Assembly (NCBI RefSeq): GCF_902809865.1
Contig: NZ_CADDWH010000001.1
Coordinates: forward strand, 1,488,001 to 1,552,000
Reading direction: 5' to 3'
DNA from: Halobacillus sp. Marseille-Q1614
GTDB lineage: Bacteria; Bacillota; Bacilli; Bacillales; Halobacillaceae
DNA length: 64,000 nucleotides
Below, piece by piece: positions 24,996 through 64,000 of this stretch (position 1 is its first letter; every line of letters starts with the position of its first letter). Under the pieces are notes generated by a model. That model was not told the DNA's origin and did not search any database. It worked only from the letters and a program-made list of their open reading frames with translations. The translations under genes and the position numbers were made by a program.

Positions 24996-25218
24996 AAGGG
25001 AGTCCCCCCTCTCTTTTATTCACAATTATCCTACCATAAATCAACCTTAGGGGAAACTTTTCAAATTAACCCGTATAAATATTTTCCATTTGGTCATAAT
25101 GTAGTATAGAAGCAGGACATTTGCTTCTGGAAACGGTGAAGACTTATCTCCCCATAAGTTCTTCGACCGGTTTCTCCTCTCCCTTTACTTTTTGCTTATC
25201 GTCATTTAAGCAAAAAGA

Positions 25219-25253
25219 AGGGCTGTCCCTAAATAGGACAGCCCTATTTTTTT
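25219..25253 (+). terminator. Strong hairpin terminator in the rsmD upstream region
   Basis: A perfect 10-bp stem (AGGGCTGTCC/GGACAGCCCT) is followed on the plus strand by ATTTTTTTG. On the minus strand it is followed by TCTTTTTGC, so it could also act between the hairpin block and rsmD, like an attenuator. No plus-strand gene lies directly upstream. Confidence 0.7.
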
Positions 25254-49415: not shown

Positions 49416-50882
49416 ATGAATCAAAAAGATACTCCCTTGTTTACAGGGTTAAAAAAACATGCAGCAAAAAACCCGGTCCAGTTTCACATTCCCGGCCACA
49501 AAAAAGGAAAAGGCATGGACAGCGAGTTCACAAAATTCATGGGAGAGGACGCCCTGTCCATCGACCTGATTAACATAGAGCCGTTAGATGACCTTCATCA
49601 CCCCCAAGGAATGATACAGGAGGCGCAGCAGCTTGCGGCCGAAGCTTTTGGAGCTGACTATACGTTCTTCTCCGTTCAAGGGACTTCAGGCGCAATTATG
49701 ACGATGGTTATGAGCGTCTGCCACCCTGGAGATAAAATCATCGTTCCTAGAAATGTTCATAAATCCGTGATGACTGCAATCATTTTCTCAGGGGCCGTTC
49801 CTGTCTTTGTCCACCCGGAGCTTGACGAGAATTTAGGGATTTCACACGGAATCACACCTGAAGCTGTCGAAAAAGCCTGTGAATCCCATCCGGACGCCAA
49901 AGCCGTTCTAGTTATTAACCCGACTTATTTCGGAGTAACAGCCGATTTAAAAAGAATTGTAGAAATTGCACACAGCTTTTCCATCCCCGTCTTAGTCGAT
50001 GAAGCTCACGGTGTCCATATTCACTTTCACCATCAGCTTCCTGTCTCTGCTATGGAAGCAGGAGCTGATTTGGCTGCGACGAGTGTTCATAAACTTGGAG
50101 GAGCATTGACCCAGAGTTCGGTTTTGAATTTACGAGAAGGATTAGTTTTCCATGAACGTGTTCAATCTGTCCTCTCGATGCTGACGACGACTTCAACCTC
50201 CTATATTCTTTTAGCTTCTCTGGATACAGCGCGCCGCCAGCTCATGATGCACGGGAAGGAACTGTTGGACCATACACTGGTGCTTGCCGATTATACTCGA
50301 AAGGCGATCAACGAAATCTCTCCATTATACTGTGCCGGAGATGAAATTCTCGGCAGCCCGGCAACTTTTGATTTTGATCCAACGAAGCTGATTATTTCAG
50401 TAAAGGAGTTAGGCGTAACCGGGTATTATGTGGAAGGCTGGCTTAGAGAGAATTTTAATATCGAAGTGGAGCTGTCAGATCTGTATAACATCCTTTGTTT
50501 AATTACTCCAGGAGATTCCCAAAGTGAAGTTGATCTGTTAATCCACGCATTAAAGCGTCTCGCTGACGAATCAGAGAAGCAGTCAGTGAACGACATAACG
50601 GTTAAAGTTCCGGAAATCCCATTACTTGCTTTAACTCCTAGAGAAGCCTTTTATTCGAAAACAGAAACAGTACGGCTTGAGGACGCTGTAGGAAGAATCA
50701 GCGCGGAGTTTATTATGATCTACCCGCCCGGCATCCCTATTTTCATTCCGGGTGAAATCATTACGAACGATAATGTCCAGTACATTCGGGAAAACATAAA
50801 GGCCGGCCTTCCTGTGCAGGGACCTGAAGATGACACATTAAATACGATCCGCGTAATCCAAGAACAAAGAGCCATACGCTAA
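49416..50882 (+). CDS. speA: Arginine decarboxylase SpeA-type (Orn/Lys/Arg decarboxylase, class I fold)
   Basis: PLP-dependent basic amino acid decarboxylase starting polyamine synthesis; in B. subtilis SpeA makes agmatine from arginine. The 488 residues show HIPGHKKGKG at the N-terminus, the FSVQGTSGAIMTMVMS phosphate-binding segment, the PLP aspartate in VLVDEAHGVH, and the Schiff-base lysine in TSVHKLGGALTQSS (about residue 225). The short form lacks the N-terminal wing domain of enterobacterial enzymes. Arginine specificity is inferred from synteny (yktA, slp, pdh). GAGAGGTG precedes the ATG. Confidence 0.9.
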   Translation: MNQKDTPLFTGLKKHAAKNPVQFHIPGHKKGKGMDSEFTKFMGEDALSIDLINIEPLDDLHHPQGMIQEAQQLAAEAFGADYTFFSVQGTSGAIMTMVMSVCHPGDKIIVPRNVHKSVMTAIIFSGAVPVFVHPELDENLGISHGITPEAVEKACESHPDAKAVLVINPTYFGVTADLKRIVEIAHSFSIPVLVDEAHGVHIHFHHQLPVSAMEAGADLAATSVHKLGGALTQSSVLNLREGLVFHERVQSVLSMLTTTSTSYILLASLDTARRQLMMHGKELLDHTLVLADYTRKAINEISPLYCAGDEILGSPATFDFDPTKLIISVKELGVTGYYVEGWLRENFNIEVELSDLYNILCLITPGDSQSEVDLLIHALKRLADESEKQSVNDITVKVPEIPLLALTPREAFYSKTETVRLEDAVGRISAEFIMIYPPGIPIFIPGEIITNDNVQYIRENIKAGLPVQGPEDDTLNTIRVIQEQRAIR

Positions 50883-50884
50883 AT

Positions 50885-50915
50885 AAAAAAAGGACCGCCT
50901 CGTGGCGGTCCTTTT
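50885..50915 (-). terminator. Terminator of the SR1-type RNA (shared with speA)
   Basis: The stem AAAAGGACCGCC/GGCGGTCCTTTT, loop of 4, is followed by seven T residues on the minus strand; the plus strand has TTTTG, so speA also ends here. Confidence 0.88.
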
Positions 50916-50921
50916 GTTCGT

Positions 50922-51032
50922 TTATTTCTTAGGCTGATTACAAGATGGACATGTGCTGTAGAGAGTCGCTACTTTTTCATTGTCATAATGCTCGATTACT
51001 TTTTGACACTCTTGACATACGATCGTACCCAT
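50922..51032 (-). CDS. sr1P: SR1P-like GapA-binding peptide
   Basis: A 36-residue peptide, MGTIVCQECQKVIEHY and onward, with two CxxC pairs (C6-C9 and C28-C31), which fits a small zinc ribbon. The opening MGTIVCQ and the VATLY segment recall B. subtilis SR1P (39 residues), which binds GapA and promotes its association with RNase J1. AAGGGTGGG lies about 8 bases before the ATG. It is encoded inside the SR1-like RNA, and the genes around it (speA, slp, pdh) are those flanking sr1 in B. subtilis. Confidence 0.8.
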   Translation of the reverse strand: MGTIVCQECQKVIEHYDNEKVATLYSTCPSCNQPKK

Positions 51033-51082
51033 TTAGGAATCCCACCCTTTTTAAATTTTGTTATCGCTTTCACTGTAGTTAC

Positions 51083-51111
51083 ATTTTAATATGACACATT
51101 GTTTTTTTCAA
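51083..51111 (-). promoter_or_regulatory. Promoter of the SR1-like RNA
   Basis: Minus strand TTGAAA (51111-51106), 17-base spacer, TAAAAT (51088-51083); start predicted near 51076. Confidence 0.7.
51088..51098 (-). promoter_or_regulatory. CcpN-like operator in the SR1 promoter spacer
   Basis: The minus strand reads TGTGTCATATT, an exact match to the CcpN consensus TRTGHYATAYW as I recall it. It touches the -10. CcpN represses sr1, gapB and pckA under glycolytic conditions in B. subtilis. Confidence 0.6.
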
Positions 51112-51135
51112 CCCTTTTAGTATAACTTTTTAAAA

Positions 51136-51146
51136 AATGTGACATA
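51136..51146 (-). promoter_or_regulatory. Second CcpN-like site upstream of the SR1 promoter
   Basis: The minus strand reads TATGTCACATT, one mismatch from TRTGHYATAYW, 48 bp upstream of the first site. Paired sites are typical of CcpN promoters. Confidence 0.4.
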
Positions 51147-51184
51147 CTAATTGTTTTGCACTTATTACCTTATGTTTTATTTTA

Positions 51185-63188: not shown

Positions 63189-64000
63189 ATGAAGTTTGTT
63201 AAAAATGACCAAACGGCCGTCTTCGCACTAGGCGGACTCGGTGAAATTGGTAAAAACACATACGCCGTTCAATTCCAAGATGAAATTATCCTCATTGATG
63301 CTGGGATTAAATTTCCAGAAGACGAATTATTAGGAATTGACTATGTCATTCCTGACTACACTTATTTAGTTCAAAATGTAGACAAAATTAAAGGCCTCTT
63401 TATTACACACGGCCACGAAGATCACATCGGCGGTATTCCCTACCTGCTTCGAGAGATCAATATTCCGATCTATGCCGGTAAGCTAGCTGCCGGACTTATT
63501 CGTAATAAGCTTGATGAACATGGTTTATTGCGTAATACAAAAATGCATACTTTTGACGAAGACGATGTGATTAAATTCCGCAAAACATCGGTTTCTTTCT
63601 TCCGTACAACGCATAGTATCCCTGATTCTTTTGGAATCGTTGTTAAAACACCACCTGGAAACGTCGTTCATACAGGTGACTTTAAATTCGATTTCACCCC
63701 TGTTGGAGAACCAGCGAACATTGCGCGCATGGCGGAAATTGGAAAAGAAGGCGTTCTTGCACTATTGTCTGACAGTACTAATAGTGAAGTGCCAGGCTTT
63801 ACAAAGTCTGAACGTGTAGTCGGCCAAAGCATTAATGATATCTTTTCACGAGTGGACGGCCGCTTGATTTTCGCGACATTTGCATCTAACATTTACCGTT
63901 TACAGCAAGTCGTTGAATCAGCCGTAAAATTCAATCGTAAAGTCGCGGTGTTTGGCAGAAGCATGGAGTCTTCTATCCGTATCGGACAGGAATTAGGCTA
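63189..64000 (+). CDS. rnjA: Ribonuclease J1, N-terminal part
   Basis: The first 270 codons of RNase J1, a beta-CASP metallo-beta-lactamase enzyme with 5'-to-3' exo- and endonuclease activity in mRNA decay and rRNA maturation. The zinc site is seen in H74-G-H76-E-D78-H79, with a further family His in [10 protein letters not shown] and the RTTHSIPDS stretch. The reading frame is open to the right edge. Translation is probably coupled to rpoY, whose last codons contain GTGGAG. Confidence 0.95.

Follow-up and report, generated by a model that had tools for sequence, protein, structure and literature searches.

Judged from its sequence, the locus described here is a Halobacillus sr1 gene encoding SR1P, and it belongs to a known gene family. 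We give a probability of roughly 85% to the reading that its transcript would be an mRNA for SR1P under the control of CcpN and, probably, of CcpA, with pairing to ahrC mRNA unproven. The gene appears to be a modest variant, with conserved coding and control and a lineage-specific promoter layout. SR1 is a well-studied dual-function small RNA of Bacillus, whose two functions have been conserved for a billion years according to the parts of PMC8501984 and PMC8464778 that were available; the B. subtilis facts used for comparison come from the available parts of these two papers and of PMC8152036 and PMC7430163.

An sr1 gene convergent with speA

The features at the locus are listed below, with the basis of each in brackets. 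Coordinates are those of the window, by which we mean the whole 64-kb stretch of DNA that was analysed.

49416..50882, plus strand: speA-like Orn/Lys/Arg decarboxylase gene, the convergent neighbour (PF01276, 377 bits; synteny)
50888..50915, both strands: putative bidirectional terminator, common to sr1 and the convergent speA-like gene (hairpin scan)
50884..51076, minus strand: predicted SR1 transcript of about 193 nt (RF02376 match; 5' end inferred from the -10 box)
51032..50922, minus strand: SR1P ORF with an ATG start, 36 aa (PF13790 and pN/pS)
51072..51059, minus strand: TGAAAGCGATAACA, a cre-like candidate site for CcpA spanning roughly +5 to +18 (strict consensus match)
51111..51083, minus strand: sigma-A type promoter-like site, TTGAAA-17-TAAAAT (scan and conservation in relatives)
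51088..51098, minus strand: TGTGTCATATT, a CcpN-type site that lies in the spacer of the promoter and abuts the -10 box (consensus match; conserved)
51119..51129, minus strand: decayed middle CcpN-like site AAAGTTATACT with 2 mismatches, upstream of the -35 box (sequence)
51138..51148, plus strand: TGTGACATACT, a CcpN-type site in the opposite orientation to sr1 and 50 bp further upstream than TGTGTCATATT (consensus match)

The 36-codon ORF translates into MGTIVCQECQKVIEHYDNEKVATLYSTCPSCNQPKK, in which CxxC occurs twice, and it matches the Pfam family PF13790 (SR1P) with 62 bits against a cut-off of 26, with no NCBIfam match at E 0.001. The Rfam model RF02376 (SR1) matches 51083..50884 on the minus strand along its entire length (model positions 1-210 of 210) with 50.7 bits, the gathering threshold being 45, and the peptide is encoded within the RNA that this model matches. 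As both scores exceed the curated cut-offs, the identification as SR1/SR1P made in the initial annotation, including its peptide of 36 residues with two CxxC motifs, is confirmed at the level of family membership.

Promoter and terminator scans are weak when taken singly, since the counts in 3 kb were near expectation (8 promoter-like sites versus 6.0 expected, and 4 terminator-like sites versus 2.3). The promoter with 17-bp spacing that had been described earlier is nevertheless credible because of its position and its conservation in relatives, and the strong terminator described with it corresponds to a hairpin at 50915..50888 with 12 pairs, 7 of them GC, and T tails on both strands. With the start placed 7 nt beyond the -10 box, near 51076, the predicted length is about 193 nt, close to the 190 nt or so originally proposed; B. 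subtilis SR1 has 205 nt. Folding of the window RNA gave a z-score of -1.78, and 12 of 200 shuffles folded as well.

The decarboxylase has its nearest named relatives in Halobacillus, with H. massiliensis the closest (87%). By a strict pattern, 60 of 80 named SpeA loci have a convergent SR1P ORF 32-652 nt downstream, and two of the 20 loci missing it have less than 200 nt of flank. The position of sr1 beside speA, which had been claimed for this locus, is supported. The RNase J1 gene does lie about 12 kb away, as had also been claimed: it begins at 63189 and runs past the end of the window, so that only the first 270 residues are available, and these give 492.6 bits where the cut-off for the full-length protein is 820. 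The gene order resembles that of B. subtilis, and the nearness is no evidence of function. A ylbH leader RNA was also detected in the window, at 25131-25253 on the minus strand (RF00516, 81.3 bits, gathering threshold 50).

The whole genome contains one PF13790 copy. A second RF02376 match, of 30.6 bits, is below the cut-off and comes without SR1P, and it was rejected as an SR1 copy; it spans the end of a 556-aa ORF, which by eye we presume to be an oligopeptide-binding protein, together with the terminator of that ORF.

SR1P is widespread in the order and under purifying selection

The initial annotation had asked whether relatives conserve the peptide, and they do: SR1P is present in all 44 genomes of the window's family and in 325 of 397 genomes of the order, and the seven positives among 398 genomes of a phylum-wide sample all come from this same order. 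The available part of PMC8501984 reports SR1 homologues in 139 species, from Bacillus and Geobacillus only, and that of PMC8464778 gives the range as Bacillales. With 118 of the 135 sampled genera of the order carrying it, SR1P reaches beyond the Bacillus and Geobacillus species named in the former. The 30 order-wide loci used here (L008-L037) were taken from the top of the score ranking and not at random, and they partly overlap the named set. Five genomes of the order (G322, G305, G365, G384 and G022) have 2 to 7 SR1P matches each, so the family may have expanded in places; G322 has seven, and G384 has 8% contamination.

SR1P is under strong purifying selection. When the first 28 codons were compared in 276 pairs from 24 genomes, those of Halobacillus and its near relatives, pS was 0.773 and pN 0.055, and the resulting pN/pS of 0.071 indicates that SR1P is kept as a protein; for ahrC in the same 24 genomes the values were 0.865, 0.056 and 0.065. 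Eleven columns are invariant in 35 sequences, including C6, C9 and C28, and C31 is nearly so. The synonymous rate of SR1P is slightly below those of all 34 ahrC windows (0.777-0.910), with codons 2-3 and 23-24 varying least at synonymous sites, and this dip is too small to claim an overlapping RNA function inside the SR1P codons. With an intact ORF under such selection, and with conserved operators and synteny, it is highly improbable that this sr1 copy is decayed or non-functional.

CcpN-type sites flank the sr1 promoter

With TRTGHYATAYW, which we take to be the CcpN consensus, the only two matches in the 64-kb window flank the sr1 promoter and lie 50 bp apart. The number of matches is not unusual, as 1.34 are expected in 64 kb and at least two occur in 37 of 100 shuffles, and genome-wide (3.98 Mb) the motif showed no enrichment, with 78 matches versus 70 for a reversed control. 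The case for CcpN thus rests on the place and the conservation of the sites.

The inverted arrangement (49-50 bp) recurs in 18 of 31 loci of the family and in 8 of 15 named Halobacillus, Thalassobacillus and Pontibacillus loci, two sets that overlap, but in none of 75 loci of other Bacillales. The remaining family loci have a direct pair (4 of 31), one site (4 of 31) or no full match (5 of 31). In the 75 other loci a direct pair at 31-33 bp is the usual layout (45 loci, with one site in 25 and none in 5), so that the upstream site, inverted and 50 bp away in the window, is mostly direct and about 32 bp away elsewhere in Bacillales, as it is in B. subtilis. The decayed site AAAGTTATACT occupies the place of that upstream direct site. 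According to the part of PMC8464778 available, the B. subtilis CcpN sites lie in the promoter spacer and directly upstream of the -35 box. Thalassobacillus sr1 (L101, L103, L106 and L108) resembles the Halobacillus gene in its SR1P and in a strict cre in the leader, but has a direct CcpN pair 32 bp apart.

CcpN itself is encoded in the genome (NF053704, 346 bits, cut-off 260), next to a PF03618 gene. A perfect CcpN-type site (L007 792-802; C1:1019847-1019857) precedes the assumed start of ccpN by about 20 nt, which suggests possible autoregulation of ccpN. The genome has two GAPDH genes, and one of them, the second (gapB-like; L006 1413-1438), has the CcpN-type site TGTGTTATACT before it; directly in front of this site stands CAAAAGCGTTTTCA, a degenerate cre-like motif resembling that in Bacillus SR1 leaders. 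Four loci from one genus of the family (L046, L048, L049 and L051; small genomes of 2.6-3.2 Mb) show no full CcpN match at the sr1 promoter and retain SR1P, together with a leader element that is strict in one of them and has one mismatch in the other three, and this genus would be a natural test of CcpN dependence.

Carbon control of sr1 is supported by the CcpN-type sites at its promoter. These sites, with the ccpN and ccpA genes, lend support to the link with carbon metabolism that the initial annotation had proposed.

A cre-like element in the leader

By the cre consensus that we assumed, TGAAAGCGATAACA is the only strict match in 64 kb, where 0.09 are expected and 9 of 100 shuffles have one. 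The leader element is strict in 24 of 31 family loci and has one mismatch in the other 7, and among 75 other loci it is strict in none, with one mismatch in 10, two in 54 and more in 11. CcpA is encoded in the genome (TIGR01481, 517 bits, cut-off 442). This strict cre at the start differs from the B. subtilis situation, where the available parts of PMC8464778 and PMC7430163 place the sr1 cre about 260 bp upstream; at that distance upstream of the window's sr1 there was no match, even with one mismatch. In the accessible portions of the literature on sr1, CcpA and cre we found no mention of a leader cre, which may still be in print. CcpA probably controls sr1 through this leader cre.

Since the element would be transcribed as part of the leader, and some of TGAAAGCGATAACA is base-paired in the Rfam model, it could instead be an RNA feature (a structure or a protein-binding site in the transcript) and no CcpA operator; that, of the three N positions in the cre consensus, two are nearly fixed would also fit. 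In a consensus fold of 27 relatives from ATG-50 to +93, however, practically no conserved structure was seen (-1.5 kcal/mol, covariation term 0.16) and the element is unpaired, which favours a DNA site. Moreover, among 33 distinct leaders the element varies most at a position that is N in the cre consensus and never in its G, AAA, CG and final CA, a pattern that is partly circular because the rows were aligned by best match; independent alignments agree with this placing. We therefore consider an RNA feature unlikely and retain the CcpA operator as the probable reading.

Pairing with ahrC mRNA

The initial annotation had also attributed base-pairing functions to the RNA, with ahrC mRNA as a target to be checked. 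A full dual function as in B. subtilis, in which SR1 would also pair with ahrC mRNA and repress its translation, would agree with experiments on 9 of 23 homologues that found both functions conserved (PMC8464778, available part). AhrC is encoded in this genome as well, and in 2 of 16 Halobacillus and near relatives the terminator arm favours its own ahrC, with at most 5% of swaps as good. The window's arm, however, reaches -6.6 kcal/mol against ahrC (-30..+150), a value matched by 67% of other genomes' arms and by 86% of ahrC swaps, and terminator arms vary widely among relatives. In an accessibility-weighted scan 16 of 58 window genes scored as well as the best interaction of ahrC. Scanning 12 genomes for local accessibility revealed no SR1:ahrC site common to them, and a contact that the scan suggested in Bacillus was tested: at this site, picked with the Bacillus rows already in view, 23% of segment pairs of SR1 and ahrC in this genome were as good, against 0.3-13% in four B. 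subtilis-group genomes and 29 and 31% in two more. SR1P codons 20-26 were rejected as an anti-SD pairing site for ahrC, as 22 of 58 window genes pair equally well.

These tests have low power, because the whole-length duplex test (z 1.17 for the window) missed the six B. subtilis-group rows too (z -0.17 to 0.92), making it uninformative, and the arm test flagged one of three such rows. That row was B. inaquosorum, whose arm pairs near ahrC +74 at -13.3 kcal/mol and beats each of 21 mRNA swaps; the remaining rows do not stand out, being equalled by 38% and 14% of swaps. The arm test covered the 22 of 37 genome pairs kept by hand as having a plausible terminator hairpin, a choice that excluded, among others, B. 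mojavensis, B. halotolerans and B. swezeyi, which belong to the B. subtilis group. The pairing set also left out Geobacillus proteiniphilus (L130; ahrC L194, G431), whose ahrC frame has one in-frame TGA, either a sequencing error or a broken gene.

With such tests, pairing with ahrC was no better than controls, and it is unsupported, yet not disproved. Of the links proposed between glycolysis, arginine metabolism and RNA decay, that to carbon metabolism is supported by sequence, and that to arginine metabolism, which depended on the pairing, is not supported by these tests. We regard the full dual function as rather unlikely here, and prefer an SR1P mRNA under carbon control. Pairing of SR1 with another target, kinA mRNA, is described as conserved in nine Bacillus species in the available part of PMC8501984.

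The peptide and GapA

The AlphaFold2 model of SR1P has three strands (mean pLDDT 78, pTM 0.42). Of 38 Foldseek matches to this model none had an E-value of 0.001 or below (best E 0.33), and the best, not significant either, were chains of PerR, in which four cysteines form a Zn(Cys)4 site; zinc-ribbon Pfam matches were weak and below the cut-off, and a search against PDB sequences gave no match. The two CxxC motifs and the three-strand model are shared with the structural Zn(Cys)4 sites of PerR/Fur proteins, from which SR1P is set apart by the insignificant match; a zinc peptide is plausible. Genes for both SR1P partners, GapA and RNase J1, are encoded in the genome. In the available part of PMC8152036 lysine K332 of GapA is decisive; taken as 1gd1 numbering, this position aligns with a Gln in the present GapA, beside two lysines.

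A working model for sr1 in Halobacillus

Under the preferred reading, plentiful glycolytic sugars would let CcpN, through the sites around the promoter, keep sr1 off, and CcpA, at the cre just past the start, would probably do the same. Under gluconeogenic conditions the transcript would be made, ending at the hairpin common with speA, and would be translated into SR1P. If the peptide acts as in B. subtilis it would bind GapA, and GapA-bound RNase J1 would then work better. In the Halobacillus lineage the transcript would behave mainly as an mRNA, trans-pairing with ahrC being unproven.

Halobacillus sr1 resembles B. subtilis SR1/SR1P in its peptide family, the convergent speA, the sigma-A type promoter and the CcpN-type site in the spacer. 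It differs in its shorter peptide (36 versus 39 aa), in a shorter and divergent 3' part with another terminator arm, and in the ahrC pairing, which is not supported here, unlike in B. subtilis SR1.

A further step, which we offer tentatively and judge somewhat less than evenly probable, is that in Halobacillus and its relatives sr1 may be a single-purpose SR1P mRNA that does not pair with ahrC, from a promoter rewired by the inverted CcpN site and the strict cre at the start site. A lineage that keeps the peptide and the carbon control but not the pairing seed would tell which of the two functions is older. If the single-purpose reading is true, two glycolytic repressors would act directly on one 36-residue peptide, and the role of the peptide would be ancestral, with sRNA pairing gained in the Bacillus subtilis group.
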